A stretch of DNA of 64,000 bases, taken from the NCBI RefSeq assembly GCF_947503705.1, contig NZ_CANNES010000001.1, positions 998,501 to 1,062,500 of the forward strand, in the 5' to 3' direction. The position numbers and the translations under genes were made by a program. The notes below the pieces were generated by a model, which saw only the letters and a program-made list of their open reading frames with translations, was not told the DNA's origin and ran no database searches. The stretch comes from an uncultured Tateyamaria sp. Lineage in GTDB: Bacteria; Pseudomonadota; Alphaproteobacteria; Rhodobacterales; Rhodobacteraceae. Position 1 is the stretch's first letter; each line of letters begins with the position of its first letter. This document shows positions 2 through 8,791 of this stretch, piece by piece.

Positions 2-3000
2 GTCTGTAATGTCACTTCGCAAGCCATCGGCGGCGTGACCGGCAACACCGATCAGAGCAACGTGACAGGCTTGATCGAAACCCTGTCGATGCCGTCCGGT
101 TCTTTCGTGAGTTATACGGCCCGTTGTCTGGTGCCGACATCGGCCACCGGAACACTTTCCAACACCGCGACGGTCTCTAGTTCAATTGGTGACCCCGTCG
201 CGGCCAACAACTCGGCCACCGACAATGACACGGTGATCACGCAAGAAAGTGATCTGAGCATCGCCCTGCGCGCGCCGCAGGCCGGCTATTTTGCTGGCGA
301 CACGTTCACCATGTCCGGTACTGTTTCCAATTCCGGCCCAAGCGATGCGCCTAACACGTCCGTCGCCATCACGTTGCCTGCGGGTCTGACTTTTGTGTCG
401 ACCTCTGGCTGTGCCGAAGACCCCAATGGTGTGCCCACCTGTAGCGTGGGCACTGTGACACCTACTGCCACAAACCGCTTTGATCTGACCGTTTCTGTTG
501 ACGGGGATGCCGGTGCAAATCTGACAACAACGGCTTTGGTCTCATCAGATGCCACAGACCTGAACACGGCGAACAACACTGGCACATCCAGCGTGGCGAT
601 CACACCGTTGGTGGATGTGAGCGTCACCACAACGGATGGCGTAAGCGCTGTGGCTGCGGGGGACACCGTGACCTACACCACGGTTGTTTCGAATGCGGGT
701 CCTTCGACAGATCCATCGGTGAGCTTTACCGACTCTTTCCCAGCAAACCTGACCTGCGGATATACGTCCGTGGCCACAGGTGGCGCGACCGGCAATACCG
801 TGTCCGGAACTGGTAACCCAAGCGAAACGCTGAACCTGCCCAATGGGTCCACCGTTACATACACGGCCGTCTGTACTGTGCCGAGTTCGCTTGCGCCCCA
901 GATCCTCTCGAGCACGGCGACGGTAACCCCATCCGTATTCGAGACCGTTACTTCAAATAACACGGCCACGGATGACGATACGTCCGTCGTTACCTCTGTC
1001 GATCTGAGCGTCTCTGTCAGCCAAGGAACGAACCCGCTGTTTGTCGGTGAGACAAACACGTACACAGTGACGATCAACAACGCCGGGCCAAGTGATGCGC
1101 CAAGCATCTTTGCTGGTGCAAGCGCCGGTCCGGGTTTGGACTTTGGCGTGCTCTCGGGCTGTACCGCGTCATCCAGCCCTGTCCCGCCAGGTTTGTTTGC
1201 TTGCGACATTCCCACTTTGATCGCAGGCCAGCAGGCGTCATTCACGTTCACCGCAACGGCCAATGGCGATCTGACCGGTTCGGTGTCGGCTTCTGCATTC
1301 GGCTTTGTTGTTGATGGGGATGAGGTGGACGCTGCCGACAACACCTTTGACGCAACAACGACAGTCGTGCCGCGCGCCGATCTGTCTGTCACCAAATCGG
1401 ACGGTGTGACCAGCGCCGCTGCGGGCGAAACCGTGACCTACACGATCGTCGCCAGCAATGCCGGACCTTCGCCCGATCCAGCCGCCGCGCTGACCGACAC
1501 CTTCGCCTCGGGGCTGACCTGTACATATACCTCCGTTGCTGCGGGTGGGGCCACGGGCAACACGGCTGCAGGGTCCGGCGATCTGTCAGAGACGCTGTCG
1601 CTGCCGGTGGACGCATCGGTGACTTACACCGCAAGCTGCCTCATCGGAACGACAGAGACGGGCACGTTGTCCAACACTGCCACGATTGCGGCTTCCATTG
1701 CTGACCCAGACACCGCGAACAATACGGCCACGGACAATGACACAGTGTTGCAACAGGTCGCTGATCTGAATGTGACGCTGGCAGATACGCCAGACCCGGT
1801 CAACGCGGCCAGCAACATCAGTTATTCGGTTGATGTGACCAATGACGGCCCATCTCAGGCTGCCAACGCCGTGGCCACCTTTACCCTCGACGGTGGCCTG
1901 TCGCTGGTGTCGACCACTGGCTGTACCGAGGACCCCAATGGCGTCACCACCTGTAGCTTGGGTGCAATTGCGTTAAACGACACCGCATCCTTTACCGTGG
2001 TTGCCAGCGGCACCGATGATGAGGCAGGTGATGTAACTTCAAGCGTGTCCGTCGCTTCGGATGCCACTGACCCCATAACCACAGATAACATTGCCCAAGC
2101 GACGACAACCGTCACGCAGGTTGCTGACATTGCTGTTGTGATCAGCGATGGGCTGACCAGCGCGCTTGCGGGCAACAACATCACCTATACACTTAACGTT
2201 GCTAACTTTGGCCCATCGACAGATCCGGCTGTTCGGATTGTCGATACCTTCGACCCGAATACAACCTGCACCTTCTCGCCTGTGTTCCTCAATGGTGGGT
2301 CGCTTGTGTCCAGTACCACGGTTGCGGGTGGTTTTGATCAGACGGTGTCACTGCCTTCGGGCGGGCGCGCGTTCTACAATGTGTCTTGTACTATTGACGG
2401 GGATTTCGAGGGGACATTGACCAATTCCGTGGTTGCGACGGGATCTGTCATTGATCCGGTTGCATCCAACAATGCAGCTGCCGACAGCGACACAGTTGTG
2501 ACCCGCTCGACCGATCTGAGCGTCACGAACTCCGATGGCATCACCCTCATAACGTCTGGTCAGAGCCTGACATACAAGATTGTTGTTCGGAATTTCGGTC
2601 CATCGGACGAGCCTGCAGCGACGTTCACAGACAGCTTCCCGACTGGCTTGACCTGTACCTATACCAGCACCGCGGAAGGCGGGGCGACGGGCAACACCGC
2701 CTCCGGTTCGGGCAATCTGACCGAAACGCTCGCGATGCCGAAGGGGTCGTCTGTGACGTATTTGGCAAGCTGTCTGGTCGATCCAAATGCGACGGGCACA
2801 TTGTCGAATACGGCGAGCGTTACCGCATCCGGCTTTGATCGCTATACAGGCAACAATACTGCAGCCGCTGCCGACACGACGATCACGCCGCTGACCTTTG
2901 GCTTTACCAAATCCTTCAATCCGACGGCGGTCGATGTGGGCCAGACATCGCGCCTCACGCTCGTGGTGGACAACACCACCAACAGCCTGGCGTCCACAGG

Positions 3001-6000
3001 CATGAGCTTTGACGATCCGTTGCCCACCGGCATGGTGCTGGCCGCCGATCCGGCGGCGAGCAACAGCTGTGGCGGTGCCCTGACAGCGACCGCTGGCGCG
3101 TCGAGCGTTTCGCTCAGCGGTGGCACGGTTGCCGGTGGCGCCACCTGTTCTATCGCCGTGACTGTTGTCACGTCGGCGGACGGATCGCTCGCCAACACGA
3201 CGACGGTTCTGGCATCGAACTTCCCTGATGCGGGCCCTGCGGTCGCCAACCTGGCGGTGAACCCGGCAGGTGCGCCGACCTTTGTCAAAGGCTTTGCCGA
3301 TACGTCCGTGAACCAAGGTGAGACAACTGTTCTGACCTTTGGCATCGACAACACGGCCAACTCGGTTCCTGCAACAGGCATGGCCTTCACCGACACCCTG
3401 CCGGCAGGCATGGTAGTGGCGAATTCGCCTTCGGTGTCCAACGGTTGCGGCGGCACGTTCACAGCAACCCAACAGGCGGGATCCGTCTCGTTGAGCGGTG
3501 GGACGGTTGCAGCGCTTGAAAGCTGCACCATCGACGTGACCGTGCGCGCAACCGGATTCGGGACGTTGCTGAACACGGCGGGCGATCTGACATCCGATTT
3601 GCCCACGGCTACAGGGCCGTCCGCAACGCTGACCTCCGTCGCTGCGGAAATGACTTTTGCTAAGTTCTATACTCCGAACAGCATCGCGCAGGGCCAGAAT
3701 TCGACGATCTTCTACCTGATCGAAAACACCAACAGCGCCATCAACGCGACCGACGTCAGCTTTACCGACAACCTGACGGGTGGCCTCATCGTGGCGACGC
3801 CTGCGAATGTGAACAATGGTTGCGGCGGCACGTTCACAGCCGACCCGGGCAGCGCTGCCATCGTATTGAGCAATGGGGAGGTGGGCCAATTCTCGAGCTG
3901 TGTGATCACAGTTGATGTGACCGCACCTGATGCGGGGTCGATCACACACAGCACATCCGAAATAACGTCCACCGTAGCAACAACGCCCGCGGCGACCGCT
4001 ACGCTGAACGTCTCTGCGGCCTTTGCTCAGGGCTTCTTGCAAAGCTTTGTGCCCGCGTCCATCACGCAGGGTGAAACATCGGTCCTCACCTTCGACATCT
4101 CGAACGACAACTTTATCGCAGTTGAAGGGTTGGCCTTTACCGACACATTGCCAAGTGGCGTAACGGTGGCGGCAATCCCTGCGGCCTCCAACACCTGTGG
4201 CGGGACCTTCGCGCCAAGTGCCGGGGACGGAACGCTAATTTTCTCGGGCGGCGCGTTGGCCGCGCGATCGGCCTGTGCGATCTCTGTCACGGTGCGCGCT
4301 GTTGAAGACGGTTCTGCCATAAACACCAGCGGCCCGTTGACGTCGACAACAGTGCCCGACTCTGACGCTTCGGTTGCAACCCTGACAGTCGGTGCTGCGG
4401 ATGCACCTGCCTTCACCAAGGTCTTTACCCCTGACGCAGTGGAGCAGGGTGACACCTCTGACCTCACCTACACCATCGACAACAGCGCAAATGCCATCCA
4501 GGCGGGCGAACTGGCATTCACCGACAGCTTCCCCGAAGGATTGGTTGCCACGTCAGTTGCGATCACCAACACGTGCGGCGGTACAGTGACAACAGCAACC
4601 GATGGCACATTGCTGACGCTTGCGGGCGGCACCGTGGCCGAGGGCGCAAGTTGTACGATCACGGCAAATGTTCGGGTGCTCAGCGCCAGCGACATCATCA
4701 GCGTCTCCGGTGACCTGACTTCTGAATTGGAAACGGCGAGCGGTGCCTCGGCGGGGATCGAAGTGACGCGCGCAGGTGCACCCGTCTTTGCCCAGTCCTT
4801 TACACCGTCGACCATCGCACAGGGCGAAGTGTCGACACTGACATTCGATATCGACAACACGGCTAACCTGATCGAGGCGGTGAATGCAGCCTTTACCAAC
4901 ACCTTGCCTGACGGATTGATCATCGCGGACCCGTCCAATGTGTCAAACGCCTGTGGCGGCACCCTGAGCTTTAGCACCGGTGGTAGCATCCTTGATTTCA
5001 GCAATGGAGTGATTGCCGAGGGGACGAGCTGTGCGATCAGTGTCGATGTCCGCGCCTTGGTGTCGGGTGCAATCGAGAACACTACAAGTGATCTGACCTC
5101 GTCGATCACCACTGCGCTTGCTGCGTCCGCGACCTTGACGGTTGAGGCGGCGGAAGCCCCTGGCTTTGCCAAGGTCTTCGCACCTGACGCCATTGCGCAG
5201 GGCGAAACATCCGTCCTGACCTTTACTATCGACAATGGCGCCAACGCGATCCTGGCGGACTCCGTGGCCTTCAGCGACACGTTCCCGGATGGTCTGGTTC
5301 TGGCCGAAACACCCGCCGCGTCCAACACTTGTGGCGGCACGCTGACGGCGTCCGGCGGGGCTGGCGACATGTCTCTGGAAAATGGGTCTATTGCCGCCGG
5401 TGACGCCTGTGAGATCAGCGTGACCGTTCGCGCACTGGGTAGCGGCGTGATGGAGAATGTCACGAGCGATCTGACCTCAACCATCGCGACCGCTGATCCG
5501 GCAACTGCGACGTTGACGGTCACTGCTGCGGATGCCCCAACCTTTGCCAAGGCATTCTCGCCTGACACGGTAGCGCAGGGGGAAACATCGACCCTGATCT
5601 TTACCATCGACAATAGCGCCAATGCGATCCTGATGGAGAGCATCGCCTTTGACGACGTCTATCCTGAGGGGATACTGACGGCGGATGATCCCAACATCTC
5701 CAATACCTGCGGTGGTACTTTCACGACGGTTGCAGGTGGCGTTTCCGCCAGCTTGTTGGATGGGGTTCTGGCCGAAGGCGCAAGCTGCACCATCTCTGTT
5801 GATGTGCGGGCGATCGGAGTCGGGGCGTTGGAAAACACCACGACCGAACTGACCTCCACCTTGGCCACCGCACCTGCGGCATCGGCCACGCTGACTTCGA
5901 CTGCGGCGGATGCACCGGGCTTTGCCAAGTCGTTTTCGCCCGCAGCCATTGTTCAGGGCGAGGTGTCGACCCTCACGATCAGCATCGACAACACGGCAAA

Positions 6001-8791
6001 TGCAATCCTTGCCGACGAGCTTGCGATGACGGATGTGTTCCCGTCAGGCATGATCGTGGCACCGACAGCGTCCCTGACCAACACCTGCGGCGGTACCGCC
6101 ACGGCGGTGTCGGGTTCTGACACTCTGACGCTCAGCGACGGTGTTCTGGCCGAAGGATCCACATGCGAGATTACGGTCTCCGTACGGGCCATCGAGACGG
6201 GCAGCCTTGTTAACGTGACCAGCGATCTGATCTCGACCATCGCAACCGCCAGCGCAGCTACAGCCACGTTGACAGTCAGCACCGCGGATGCGCCTGGATT
6301 TGCGATCAGCTTTGCGCCCGACAGTATTGCGCAAGGTCAGACCACAACGCTGAGCTTCGTCATCGACAACACCGGAAACGCCATCGAGGCGACGTCCCTG
6401 GCCTTTGACAACACCTTGCCGACCGACGTGACCATCGCGGAAACGCCCGCTATCAGCGACAGCTGTGGCGGTACGCTGACGGCCGTGGCAGGGGCTTCCA
6501 GCCTTTCCTTTGTCGGCGGAACGGTTGCCGAAGGCGCGAGCTGTGAAGTGACGGTTGATGTGCAGGCCATCGGGACAGGTGCCGTGACGAACACGGCATC
6601 GACCCTGACATCGAGCCTGCCCACAGCGGCCGCCCCAAGCGCGACATTGACTGTGACCGAAGCAGAAGCGCCCGGCTTTACCAAGGTCTTTGGCAACACA
6701 TTACTGTCCCAAGGTGCGACGACGACGTTGGTCTATACCATCGACAACACCGCCAACAGCATCGGTGCCACGGGCCTCGGCTTTACCGACAACCTGCCTG
6801 CAGGCCTGGAGCTTGTGTCGTCGACCCTGACCGGCAATTCGTGTGGCGGCAACCTGACCGCGGCGGCTGGATCGCAAAGCATCAGCTTGAGCGGCGGCAC
6901 TTTGGGGGCAGGGGAGACCTGTCAGATCACCCTTGTGGTGCGTGCCCTGACCTCGGGTTCGTTCTCAAATGGGGCGCCTGTCCTGACATCCAGCCTGCCA
7001 ACCGCAACGGCGGACTTGCCAGGCGGCAGTGTCGTTGTCATCGAAGAGCTTCCACTGACGGCCTCATTGGTCTTTAGCCCCAGCTCGATCGAGCAGGACG
7101 AGGTGTCGACGCTGACCTATACGCTGACGAACCCGGCCGCGTTGGCCGCGACGTCTATCACGCTGAACGACACGCTGCCATCGGGAGTCAGCATTGCCTC
7201 CGTGGCGAATGCCAGCACAACCTGCTCCGGCACGCTCTCCGCGACAGCGGGCGGGTCGTCGGTGGCGCTCTCAGGTGCGAACCTCGGTGTCGGGTCCAGC
7301 TGTTCAATCTCGGTCAACGTAACGTCGCTAACCATCGGCAGTTTTGCCAACAGCTTGGATACGCTGACATCGTCCCTGGGCACATCGGATACGGCCAGCG
7401 CAACGTTGCAGATCACGCCTGCCACAACAGGTACTGTGACCTTTGTTCAGGTGACGGATACGGATGGCTCCTACAGCTTCTCGTCAGTTGAACCGGGCTT
7501 GAACTTCAGCATTCTGGCCTCGGGCGGGTCGGGGACTGCGGGCCCAATCAGGGTGGATGCGGGCAGCTATCTGGTGAACCAATCGGTCCCGGATGGCGTC
7601 GGTAACACGTCGATCAGCTGTAGCGACGGGGACAGCACGGGTGACGCGTTTGCGCGCACGCTCTCGCTCAACATCGCGCCCCTTGAGGCTGTGACTTGTA
7701 CGATTTCGTCGATCTCAACACGTCAGCAGACTGTGGATGTGATCAACGAATTCCTGACCAAACGGGCTGATCTCATCCTGTCGTCTGAGCCGTCAGCCGG
7801 CCGTCGCTTTGACCGGCTGAAACGTGGTTCGGGTACGTCTTCGCCCTTGCAGTTCTCGCAAGGCGATCTGAAGTCCTTCCTGCCCTTCTCGGCAACGATG
7901 GACTTTGGCGGCGGCAACTTCTCCTTCAGCTCCAGCCTGCTGCAAACACGGCAAGCGGCCGCCAGCCTTGCGCTTGCGCATGGCTCGCCCGAGGACACGC
8001 TTTATGTCGAAAACCAGCGCCGCGATTTCTGGGTCGAGGCACAGTACAAAGAGTTCGATCTGGGCGACAATGGCACCGGGCACTTTGGCATCATCTATGC
8101 AGGTGTCGATTATCTGGTGACACCGGATATGCTGGTGGGTGTGATGCTGCAGTTCGACGATATGGAGGACGCGTCGTCGGCCACCAACAGCACTGTCAGC
8201 GGTACCGGTTGGATGGTCGGGCCGTATATGACCATGCGCCTGAATGACCGCTTGTACTTTGATGGACGTATCGCGGTCGGCCAGTCGAACAATACGGTCA
8301 GCCCGTTCAACACCTACAGTGACGACTTCGACACCAACCGTTGGCTGGTGAAGGCTGCACTGACGGGGGAGTTCACACGGGGTGCCTGGACGATCCGACC
8401 CAATGCGAGCCTGTCCTATTATGAGGAAAAACAGCTTGGCTATACGGACTCGTTGAACGTTGCGATCCCGAGCCAGACGGTCAAGCTGGGCCAGCTCAAG
8501 ATCGGCCCGACATTCACCGGCAATTTCAACACGTTGGACGGCACCAACTATTCGCCATATTTCGGGTTGGACGCGATCTATAACTACGGTGACACGACGG
8601 GCGTGACCTTGTCCGATCCTGATGGGACGGCTGCTGTAGAAGGCCTGCGGGGCCGCATTCGGGCGGGCGTCAAGATCAGCAATGATCGTGGTAGCGAATT
8701 CAGCTTTGGCGCATCCTACGATGGTATCGGCCAGTCCGATTACGAAAACTGGGGCGTCTCGGTGGAGCTTGCAATTCCGATCAACAAATAG
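2..8791 (+). CDS. Giant repeat-rich autotransporter, 5' end missing
   Basis: The reading frame is open from the window edge, so the true N-terminus and any signal peptide lie upstream; at least 2,929 residues are visible. The order is about seven DUF11-like Ig-fold repeats (to about residue 890, typical wording DLSVTKSDGVTSAAAG and SNAGPS), then twelve repeats of about 115 residues with the core QGETSxLTFxIDNTAN. Each of the twelve carries a CGG motif and a second cysteine about 35-40 residues later. A linker follows, then a C-terminal beta-barrel of roughly 260 residues (from about residue 2657) that resembles autotransporter translocators and ends in AIPINK. The likely role is a surface-displayed adhesin or stalk; that is inference. 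Cysteine pairs are unusual in autotransporter passengers. A strong terminator follows the stop. Confidence 0.85.
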   Translation, partial: VCNVTSQAIGGVTGNTDQSNVTGLIETLSMPSGSFVSYTARCLVPTSATGTLSNTATVSSSIGDPVAANNSATDNDTVITQESDLSIALRAPQAGYFAGDTFTMSGTVSNSGPSDAPNTSVAITLPAGLTFVSTSGCAEDPNGVPTCSVGTVTPTATNRFDLTVSVDGDAGANLTTTALVSSDATDLNTANNTGTSSVAITPLVDVSVTTTDGVSAVAAGDTVTYTTVVSNAGPSTDPSVSFTDSFPANLTCGYTSVATGGATGNTVSGTGNPSETLNLPNGSTVTYTAVCTVPSSLAPQILSSTATVTPSVFETVTSNNTATDDDTSVVTSVDLSVSVSQGTNPLFVGETNTYTVTINNAGPSDAPSIFAGASAGPGLDFGVLSGCTASSSPVPPGLFACDIPTLIAGQQASFTFTATANGDLTGSVSASAFGFVVDGDEVDAADNTFDATTTVVPRADLSVTKSDGVTSAAAGETVTYTIVASNAGPSPDPAAALTDTFASGLTCTYTSVAAGGATGNTAAGSGDLSETLSLPVDASVTYTASCLIGTTETGTLSNTATIAASIADPDTANNTATDNDTVLQQVADLNVTLADTPDPVNAASNISYSVDVTNDGPSQAANAVATFTLDGGLSLVSTTGCTEDPNGVTTCSLGAIALNDTASFTVVASGTDDEAGDVTSSVSVASDATDPITTDNIAQATTTVTQVADIAVVISDGLTSALAGNNITYTLNVANFGPSTDPAVRIVDTFDPNTTCTFSPVFLNGGSLVSSTTVAGGFDQTVSLPSGGRAFYNVSCTIDGDFEGTLTNSVVATGSVIDPVASNNAAADSDTVVTRSTDLSVTNSDGITLITSGQSLTYKIVVRNFGPSDEPAATFTDSFPTGLTCTYTSTAEGGATGNTASGSGNLTETLAMPKGSSVTYLASCLVDPNATGTLSNTASVTASGFDRYTGNNTAAAADTTITPLTFGFTKSFNPTAVDVGQTSRLTLVVDNTTNSLASTGMSFDDPLPTGMVLAADPAASNSCGGALTATAGASSVSLSGGTVAGGATCSIAVTVVTSADGSLANTTTVLASNFPDAGPAVANLAVNPAGAPTFVKGFADTSVNQGETTVLTFGIDNTANSVPATGMAFTDTLPAGMVVANSPSVSNGCGGTFTATQQAGSVSLSGGTVAALESCTIDVTVRATGFGTLLNTAGDLTSDLPTATGPSATLTSVAAEMTFAKFYTPNSIAQGQNSTIFYLIENTNSAINATDVSFTDNLTGGLIVATPANVNNGCGGTFTADPGSAAIVLSNGEVGQFSSCVITVDVTAPDAGSITHSTSEITSTVATTPAATATLNVSAAFAQGFLQSFVPASITQGETSVLTFDISNDNFIAVEGLAFTDTLPSGVTVAAIPAASNTCGGTFAPSAGDGTLIFSGGALAARSACAISVTVRAVEDGSAINTSGPLTSTTVPDSDASVATLTVGAADAPAFTKVFTPDAVEQGDTSDLTYTIDNSANAIQAGELAFTDSFPEGLVATSVAITNTCGGTVTTATDGTLLTLAGGTVAEGASCTITANVRVLSASDIISVSGDLTSELETASGASAGIEVTRAGAPVFAQSFTPSTIAQGEVSTLTFDIDNTANLIEAVNAAFTNTLPDGLIIADPSNVSNACGGTLSFSTGGSILDFSNGVIAEGTSCAISVDVRALVSGAIENTTSDLTSSITTALAASATLTVEAAEAPGFAKVFAPDAIAQGETSVLTFTIDNGANAILADSVAFSDTFPDGLVLAETPAASNTCGGTLTASGGAGDMSLENGSIAAGDACEISVTVRALGSGVMENVTSDLTSTIATADPATATLTVTAADAPTFAKAFSPDTVAQGETSTLIFTIDNSANAILMESIAFDDVYPEGILTADDPNISNTCGGTFTTVAGGVSASLLDGVLAEGASCTISVDVRAIGVGALENTTTELTSTLATAPAASATLTSTAADAPGFAKSFSPAAIVQGEVSTLTISIDNTANAILADELAMTDVFPSGMIVAPTASLTNTCGGTATAVSGSDTLTLSDGVLAEGSTCEITVSVRAIETGSLVNVTSDLISTIATASAATATLTVSTADAPGFAISFAPDSIAQGQTTTLSFVIDNTGNAIEATSLAFDNTLPTDVTIAETPAISDSCGGTLTAVAGASSLSFVGGTVAEGASCEVTVDVQAIGTGAVTNTASTLTSSLPTAAAPSATLTVTEAEAPGFTKVFGNTLLSQGATTTLVYTIDNTANSIGATGLGFTDNLPAGLELVSSTLTGNSCGGNLTAAAGSQSISLSGGTLGAGETCQITLVVRALTSGSFSNGAPVLTSSLPTATADLPGGSVVVIEELPLTASLVFSPSSIEQDEVSTLTYTLTNPAALAATSITLNDTLPSGVSIASVANASTTCSGTLSATAGGSSVALSGANLGVGSSCSISVNVTSLTIGSFANSLDTLTSSLGTSDTASATLQITPATTGTVTFVQVTDTDGSYSFSSVEPGLNFSILASGGSGTAGPIRVDAGSYLVNQSVPDGVGNTSISCSDGDSTGDAFARTLSLNIAPLEAVTCTISSISTRQQTVDVINEFLTKRADLILSSEPSAGRRFDRLKRGSGTSSPLQFSQGDLKSFLPFSATMDFGGGNFSFSSSLLQTRQAAASLALAHGSPEDTLYVENQRRDFWVEAQYKEFDLGDNGTGHFGIIYAGVDYLVTPDMLVGVMLQFDDMEDASSATNSTVSGTGWMVGPYMTMRLNDRLYFDGRIAVGQSNNTVSPFNTYSDDFDTNRWLVKAALTGEFTRGAWTIRPNASLSYYEEKQLGYTDSLNVAIPSQTVKLGQLKIGPTFTGNFNTLDGTNYSPYFGLDAIYNYGDTTGVTLSDPDGTAAVEGLRGRIRAGVKISNDRGSEFSFGASYDGIGQSDYENWGVSVELAIPINK

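Follow-up and report, generated by a model that had tools for sequence, protein, structure and literature searches.

Paired cysteines in the Ig-like beads of a giant autotransporter stalk, and where their candidate cross-links may close

How can an autotransporter barrel export a passenger that contains dozens of paired cysteines? Type V secretion proteins are described in PMC8151025 as low in cysteine, with the members of a pair a few residues apart, and PMC9769942, in presenting the hairpin model, ascribes few cysteines to most autotransporters and a single pair, most often 11 residues apart, to a few of them. Disulfide loops of more than 20 residues are given as incompatible with translocation of Pet in PMC10269718 (after Leyton et al. 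2011), and a helical hairpin closed by a disulfide stalled Hbp, according to PMC8419823. In the texts cited, the support for a rule against large disulfide loops comes from laboratory constructs, e.g., engineered or fused cargo. The window (the whole stretch of 64,000 nucleotides of uncultured Tateyamaria sp. DNA that was analyzed) holds most of a gene that raises this question. A sequence-only reading had pointed to a cysteine-rich passenger in front of a C-terminal translocator-type barrel and had set it against the usual picture, in agreement with what PMC8151025 and PMC9769942 report.

The reading frame occupies positions 2-8791 of the window (+ strand), is open at the left edge and runs on upstream. 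In the contig, the gene (G000:C1:994224-1007291) has its start 4.3 kb before the left edge of the window and codes for 4,355 amino acids counted from the chosen ATG; the window shows just the C-terminal two thirds of this protein. The N-terminus is hydrophobic and, read by eye, signal-like. The beads follow in the order of eight divergent DUF7933, ten DUF11, twelve canonical DUF7933 (R1 to R12) and one prealbumin-like domain, after which comes the barrel. The features that lie in the window, with the state of the Lys-Asp-Asn isopeptide triad discussed below, are as follows:

2..2863, + strand: tandem DUF11 beads with cysteine pairs 39-40 or 10-14 residues apart; the array continues upstream
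2864..3232, + strand: DUF7933 R1; Cys codons 3068 and 3146; Lys-Asp-Asn triad complete
3239..3613, + strand: DUF7933 R2; Cys codons 3446 and 3524; triad complete
3620..3988, + strand: DUF7933 R3; Cys codons 3821 and 3899; Lys and Asp kept, Asn replaced by His
3992..4351, + strand: DUF7933 R4; Cys codons 4196 and 4274; no Lys
4373..4741, + strand: DUF7933 R5; Cys codons 4574 and 4652; no Asn
4745..5116, + strand: DUF7933 R6; Cys codons 4952 and 5030; no Lys, no Asp
5123..5494, + strand: DUF7933 R7; Cys codons 5330 and 5408; triad complete; first unit of the R7-R8 tandem modeled with AlphaFold2
5501..5875, + strand: DUF7933 R8; Cys codons 5708 and 5786; triad complete; second unit of the R7-R8 tandem modeled with AlphaFold2
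5879..6256, + strand: DUF7933 R9; Cys codons 6086 and 6164; triad complete
6257..6631, + strand: DUF7933 R10; Cys codons 6464 and 6542; no Lys, no Asp
6635..7012, + strand: DUF7933 R11; Cys codons 6842 and 6920; triad complete
7028..7390, + strand: DUF7933 R12; Cys codons 7223 and 7301; no Lys
7409..7720, + strand: prealbumin-like (SpaA-like) bead; Cys codons 7619 and 7697, 26 residues apart, the 13th pair
7721..8020, + strand: linker before the barrel; model helices at 105-125, 130-139 and 177-190
8021..8788, + strand: autotransporter beta-barrel with 12 predicted strands and no Cys; stop codon at 8789-8791

The number of DUF11 stretches obtained in an undivided Pfam scan was inflated by cross-matches on the DUF7933 repeats, and the parts were then scanned separately. 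Residues 1-1127 gave seven DUF7933 stretches, residues 1128-2380 ten DUF11 stretches, the twelve repeats twelve DUF7933 stretches (1039 bits against a cut-off of 26.5) and the C-terminal end the Autotransporter family (84.8 bits). The cross-matches of the DUF11 profile on the twelve repeats amounted to four stretches. Eight opening DUF7933-like beads were delineated by an iterated HMM, with which the fifth scored 32 bits; Pfam detects seven of them. The NCBIfam matches were a DUF11-type repeat and an autotransporter barrel, and no solved structure matched the sequence of the window protein at E 0.01.

Whole-protein counting gave 62 cysteines (42 in the window part), i.e., 31 pairs, none of them outside the beads: the opening DUF7933 beads account for 16 cysteines, the DUF11 beads for 20, R1 to R12 for 24 and the pre-barrel bead for 2, with none in the first 30 residues or in the linker and barrel. 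When the cysteines are taken in order, 27 of the 31 pairs are 24-41 residues apart and thus have loops longer than the limit of about 20 residues that PMC10269718 gives for Pet; the other four, 10-14 residues apart, all sit in DUF11 beads. Long and short spacings alternate along the DUF11 beads of the window, except for the last two, both of which are long.

The twelve tandem repeats (window 2864-7390) are real and belong to Pfam family DUF7933 (PF25564). The sequence-only reading was right in counting 24 cysteines, two per repeat, and its CGG motif surrounds the first cysteine in eleven repeats, the twelfth having CSG. The dimensions it gave have to be corrected: the repeat length, estimated at about 115 residues, is 125-127 when measured from one first cysteine to the next, and the two cysteines, thought to be 35-40 residues apart, are exactly 26 apart in 12/12 repeats. 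A spacing of 39-40 does exist in the DUF11 beads that precede the repeats. With 25 residues between the cysteines, the suggestion that each pair might close a very small loop falls away, as this length is above the Pet limit of PMC10269718. Were cysteines scattered randomly, the probability of finding two in each domain would be about 10^-5.7 for 24 cysteines over 12 domains and about 10^-16 for 62 over 31. These values, together with conservation among homologues, rule out chance pairing; the conservation across divergent homologues is the better evidence, since duplication alone could yield such regularity. A collapsed-repeat assembly artefact is unlikely, the twelve repeats being just 30-60% identical in protein sequence.

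Homologues were compared for what becomes of the pair with and without a barrel. DUF7933 was present in 7 of the 61 genomes searched (own genome included). At E 0.001, it was matched in 10/289 of a class sample and 30/398 of a phylum sample, with 6 and 14, respectively, above the family cut-off; since few of the genomes searched match, the distribution is sporadic. When named genomes were scanned with the barrel alignment, 30 loci were retrieved, among them loci of Shimia haliotis, Tateyamaria omphalii, uncultured Tateyamaria, Breoghania corrubedonensis, three Henriciella species, a Henriciella metagenome genome, Rhodobacter, Maritimibacter and Rhizobiaceae metagenome genomes. Before counting, duplicates were dropped (L082, L083 and L090, by identical ORF length and cysteine count, and L135 as the same-isolate twin of L134), as were domains with less than 70% coverage (336 reduced to 308); domain cysteine and conservation counts also exclude domains below 40 bits or 90 residues. 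Four barrel proteins (L122, L123, L125 and L131) are cut at the N-terminal end by the contig. The 25 ORFs without a barrel include four fragments of one broken gene (L132), with a barrel match in the same locus, and five ORFs that run off at the C-terminal end (L085, L091, L097, L098 and L116).

In the 17 barrel-bearing proteins, 160/161 DUF7933 domains had exactly two cysteines and one had a single cysteine; every counted domain was paired in 16 of these proteins. In ORFs without a barrel, 51/57 domains had two cysteines, five had none and one had one. By sequence, the five cysteine-free domains look DUF11/DUF7507-like. The domain HMM was grown from cysteine-bearing repeats and may favor cysteine-bearing matches, and repeats within one protein are not independent. 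Across 160 barrel-protein domains whose median pairwise identity is 31%, the two cysteine columns are the most conserved of all well-filled columns (99% and 97%). The pair persists although its loop ranges from 23 to 42 residues in barrel proteins, with a single value of 8, which is what one would expect if the two cysteines are neighbors in space; 159/160 two-cysteine domains have the pair at least 23 residues apart. L150, where the spacing is 8, is a weak barrel match (E 6e-6). Over all 308 domains, the presence of the first cysteine was strongly associated with that of the second (odds ratio 21.5), and the median spacing per protein did not differ between proteins with and without a barrel (Mann-Whitney p 0.19).

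Both cysteine columns were filled in 157/177 barrel versus 49/131 non-barrel domains with no threshold, in 154/160 versus 42/58 at 40 bits and in 140/145 versus 35/37 at 60 bits; these counts fall below those of two-cysteine domains because alignment shifts push some cysteines off the column. The difference between the groups is gone at 60 bits since low-scoring matches include DUF11/DUF7507-like domains, and we do not claim that the barrel enriches the pair. Nor do we claim that the barrel leads to loss of the triad, which was complete in 68/160 barrel and 35/58 non-barrel domains (Fisher p 0.02), since the domains of one protein are not independent. The profile search that the sequence-only reading had proposed, against proteins with and without C-terminal barrels, thus found DUF7933 in both, and the pair was kept. 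Since two cysteines are present in 160/161 domains and form the two most conserved columns in barrel proteins, the pair, judged from these alignments, belongs to the cargo domain, and the presence of a barrel has neither removed it nor shortened its loop. That the cysteines accompany DUF7933 with or without a barrel was a point that the earlier reading had missed.

Ten barrel members that lack a match to the DUF7933 HMM were scanned for other families. Nine carry Ig-like or related beta-sandwich passengers (PKD, HYR, Big, cadherin and ASH families) and one shows a barrel alone; no beta-helix family was found in the ten at E 0.001. They contain 0 to 8 cysteines before the barrel, some being cut by the contig. 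L130, L146, L147 and L149 have no PF03797 match, and their barrels were recognized by tblastn and our own HMM. Ig-like cargo therefore seems usual for this barrel family, and the cysteine pairs, as far as these alignments tell, come with the DUF7933 beads and not with the barrel.

One can ask whether there is anything to explain at all. The protein may be an ordinary fibrillar adhesin of DUF11 and DUF7933 domains for which the autotransporter barrel at the end is incidental, its cysteines being allowed since they form bonds late. All of its domain families are known, disulfides in them are already reported in PMC12617251, and the same barrel family bears other Ig-like passengers with few cysteines. 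Nevertheless, PMC8151025 and PMC9769942 describe type V passengers as poor in cysteine and with close pairs, whereas 62 cysteines are found here, and chlamydial Pmp proteins with up to 18 cysteines are treated in PMC8151025 as notable, their handling as unexamined. We regard this account as unlikely. Its domain-level part, i.e., the families and the disulfides in DUF7933, is indeed already known from PMC12617251, the one paper returned for "DUF7933" by a literature search that had most subscription journals outside its scope; the same search returned no paper on DUF7933 autotransporters. The word "autotransporter" is absent from the main text of PMC12617251, and in the literature searched we found no remark on a conserved autotransporter lineage in which each Ig-like bead has one near-invariant pair and the loops exceed the reported limit.

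PMC12617251 places DUF7933 with the CnaA-like families for which it predicts a Lys-Asn isopeptide bond, catalyzed by an Asp (Lys 973, Asp 1008 and Asn 1068 in its example), presents a crystallized DUF11 domain that contains a bond of this type and calls disulfides prevalent in DUF7933, assigning them from S-S distances in AlphaFold models. In our alignment, the commonest residues of columns 17, 52 and 112 are Lys, Asp and Asn, which is the +35/+95 spacing of the DUF7933 example in that paper. Where a domain fills all three columns, these residues tend to occur together (odds ratios 12 to 75). Six of the twelve repeats (R1, R2, R7, R8, R9 and R11) have the full triad, and in the other six it is incomplete. 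Judged by sequence, the cysteine pair, present in 12/12 repeats, is thus the invariable candidate for a cross-link in these repeats, and the isopeptide an optional one.

An AlphaFold2 model of the R7-R8 tandem, built on an alignment of 104 tandem pairs, reached a pLDDT of 98. Among the chains that were re-aligned with VIA-align 2, its best match was 9IFR, a DUF11/CLIPPER crystal structure (Z 13.7, rmsd 2.3, 119 aligned residues, 18% identity); the basal pilin EbpB came next, at Z 12.1, together with integrin ectodomains (Z about 12). Foldseek alone placed integrin ectodomains first, and 9IFR was absent among the best 50 matches listed. The model thus assigns a CnaA-like Ig fold to the DUF7933 repeats, and we infer that each cysteine pair forms a disulfide within its own bead. 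A contrary account would have the cysteines make no intrabead disulfides in the mature protein and be free, bind a ligand or cross-link neighboring molecules. The glycine-rich surroundings of the first cysteine could be taken in this sense; the exact pairing and the association of the two cysteines across the homologues, as well as the prevalence of disulfides in DUF7933 according to PMC12617251, argue against it and make it very improbable.

The bead, linker and barrel at the C-terminal end were modeled from 11 sequences (pLDDT 86, with one stretch below 50). Both cysteine columns of the pre-barrel bead are invariant in the 11/11 aligned barrel proteins. The name prealbumin-like rests on SpaA_4 matches in the relatives L089, L090, L130 and L133, the bead of the window protein itself giving no Pfam match. 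By our own count on the model, the barrel has 12 strands, the first at model residue 205, shortly preceded by the helix at residues 177-190, a candidate for the helix that type Va autotransporters have in the pore where the passenger joins the barrel. The autotransporter barrel that had been read after the repeats is well supported by profile matches (PF03797, E 5.2e-23; TIGR01414, E 3.7e-13), and it was the single PF03797 match in the whole genome at E 0.001. Foldseek ranks 1-19 for the model were all autotransporter barrels, those of BrkA, EstA, AaaA, Hbp, EspP, NalP and AIDA-I (best E 1.8e-7); superposition was loose (rmsd 11-18), as the bead is part of the model besides the barrel. On this model, the C-terminal domain is of the translocating type, as the sequence-only reading had it, and looks ordinary. 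The other suggestion of that reading, a departure from the standard type V route in secretion or assembly, may still apply.

If the barrel merely anchored the protein, the passenger could be exported by another route, such as type II secretion. Type II systems export folded, disulfide-bonded proteins. Genes of the gspD, gspE and gspF type lie directly upstream of the autotransporter gene on a Roseovarius faecimaris plasmid, whose related protein has 2,051 residues and 28 cysteines, and two genomes of the same genus have secretin genes on the contig of the autotransporter, about 17 and 69 kb away. On the other hand, the secretin genes found in the window's genome and in genome G061 lie on contigs other than that of the autotransporter, and secretins were found in 8/8 records searched, so that their presence says little. 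Type II substrates do not usually terminate in an integral 12-strand barrel. We consider such a route most improbable.

The reading that we prefer, with a probability of roughly 0.6, is that the protein is a giant surface stalk of Ig-like beads whose pairs close as the beads fold outside. The unfolded chain, its pairs reduced, would pass through the barrel starting with its C-terminal end; each bead would then fold outside, bringing its two cysteines together for oxidation there, and beads with a complete triad would also close the Lys-Asn isopeptide bond. Successive folding of beads could help to pull the chain out. The disulfides would thus probably be closed at bead folding. For the isopeptide bond the argument is, on analysis, firmer: it would link residues some 95 positions apart, requires that the bead be folded and would scarcely fit through the pore; if made, it would therefore be made outside. 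The incomplete triad in half of the repeats speaks against this part of the reading. A DsbB-family gene is present in the genome, as are two genes above the cut-off for Thioredoxin_4, a family that holds DsbA-like proteins, so that nothing found would keep the chain reduced in the periplasm.

The same genes favor the opposite order of events, in which DsbA closes the pairs while the chain, otherwise unfolded, is still periplasmic and the barrel, alone or with BamA, passes loops of 24-41 residues; the limit of about 20 residues would then be particular to Pet-like barrels or to assay conditions. The disulfide of IcsA is reported to form before outer-membrane translocation (PMC9769942) and that of intimin to need DsbA (PMC8151025); both proteins are secreted, which speaks against closure at the surface. 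PMC5802855 names the Ig-like VHH domain as the hardest cargo tried, removal of DsbA being no general cure, and reports disulfide-bearing Ig domains as surface exposed on some beta-domains, with laboratories in conflict. The equal median loop length in barrel and non-barrel proteins is also in line with passage of closed loops. Yet the longer loops blocked Pet (PMC10269718) and the disulfide hairpin stalled Hbp (PMC8419823), the 12-stranded barrel is by its model most like ordinary ones, and the isopeptide triads would still require folding outside. Taken together, periplasmic closure appears somewhat unlikely.

Whether closure occurs outside or before passage, the lineage may export chains in which nearly every bead has its cysteines too far apart for a classical barrel to pass as a closed loop. 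In that case, which we hold to be a real possibility though short of even odds, either dozens of pairs are kept reduced until exit or the BAM/barrel machinery passes large loops. If so, closure of disulfide and isopeptide bonds outside would amount to a stepwise folding ratchet, where pairs stay reduced until exit, and either route would alter the limit now accepted for type V cargo. Natural cargo with loops longer than reported to pass makes the export rule testable, a conserved natural family in which barrel and retention of the pair go together is ready material for asking when type V cargo is oxidized, and the barrel is possibly suited to the display of disulfide-bearing Ig domains.

The stalk shares families, fold and Lys/Asp/Asn positions with the DUF7933 (PF25564) and DUF11/CLIPPER (PF01345) isopeptide domains and with 9IFR; it departs from the account of these domains in PMC12617251 in that half of the twelve repeats lack a complete triad, whereas all keep the cysteine pair. 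As in type Va autotransporters (BrkA, EstA, Hbp, EspP and NalP), a 12-strand barrel is C-terminal and the passenger precedes it. Unlike the usual type Va protein, this one has Ig-like beads instead of a beta-helix and 62 cysteines instead of a few, and it ends in Lys, with no C-terminal aromatic residue. A long Ig-like stalk on an outer-membrane barrel is also the plan of inverse autotransporters (type Ve; intimin and invasin). In type Ve proteins the barrel is N-terminal, whereas the barrel of the window protein is the last domain, which sets it apart from type Ve. Intimin offers a further likeness in the disulfide of its passenger (PMC8151025). Chlamydial Pmp proteins are likewise classical autotransporters rich in cysteine (up to 18 in the passenger, PMC8151025); unlike them, the window protein has 62, one pair per bead, and no Pmp repeat family among its Pfam matches.

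By sequence, the stalk is possibly doubly cross-linked, by disulfide and isopeptide, and anchored in the outer membrane. A long stalk so anchored fits the role of fibrillar adhesin that PMC12617251 proposes for DUF11 stalks, and this is the most likely function. Since a search for rfb genes gave no match in the window or in the 20 kb stretch around the gene in its own genome, we infer the role from the architecture and from the context of two relatives. On the Roseovarius faecimaris plasmid, the related protein is encoded about 10 kb before rfbD and rfbA, and the contig with the Tateyamaria omphalii copy also has rfbD and rfbA matches.

The window protein carries three cysteine-pair layouts side by side, namely those of two kinds of DUF11 bead and that of the DUF7933 bead, whose paired cysteines lie 26 apart in the twelve repeats of the window. 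In the DUF11 beads (window 2-2863 and the part upstream of it, locus L004), the pairs are spaced 39-40 apart in one kind and 10-14 in the other, and the two kinds alternate along the protein, except for the last two beads.

Two antisense open frames that overlie the repeats are probably by-products of repeat composition rather than genes:
2348-4042, minus strand, open frame of 564 residues
4468-5643, minus strand, open frame of 391 residues

Nine relatives of the barrel (L130, L133, L134, L137, L138, L140, L146, L147 and L149; in L130, L146, L147 and L149 the barrel assignment comes from tblastn and HMM, with no PF03797 match) have passengers built of Ig-like, PKD, HYR or cadherin domains in place of a beta-helix. 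Such relatives perhaps form an under-described class of autotransporters with classical order and intimin-like cargo. In a Breoghania metagenome genome (L132, 6424-9740), four separate short open frames with DUF7933 domains are followed by a barrel match, which looks like a broken gene or else poor assembly.

Open frames of 4,063-4,087 residues, each with a single weak DUF7933 match, were found in four same-genus genomes (G004:C4, G013:C1, G014:C1 and G016:C1; L106, L107). The last 800 residues of L106, the sole giant frame examined, contain DUF11/DUF7507 domains and no barrel match. These frames are predicted giant surface proteins with a type of anchoring other than a barrel.

A related autotransporter gene with 28 cysteines is located on the 76 kb Roseovarius faecimaris plasmid pMME07001 (L157, region 1538-24365), where it is immediately preceded by gspD/E/F-type genes and followed by glycosyltransferase and rfbD/rfbA genes. 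The 77.6 kb contig with the Tateyamaria omphalii copy likewise has rfbD/rfbA matches. This setting appears to connect the gene with the biofilm plasmids of roseobacters.
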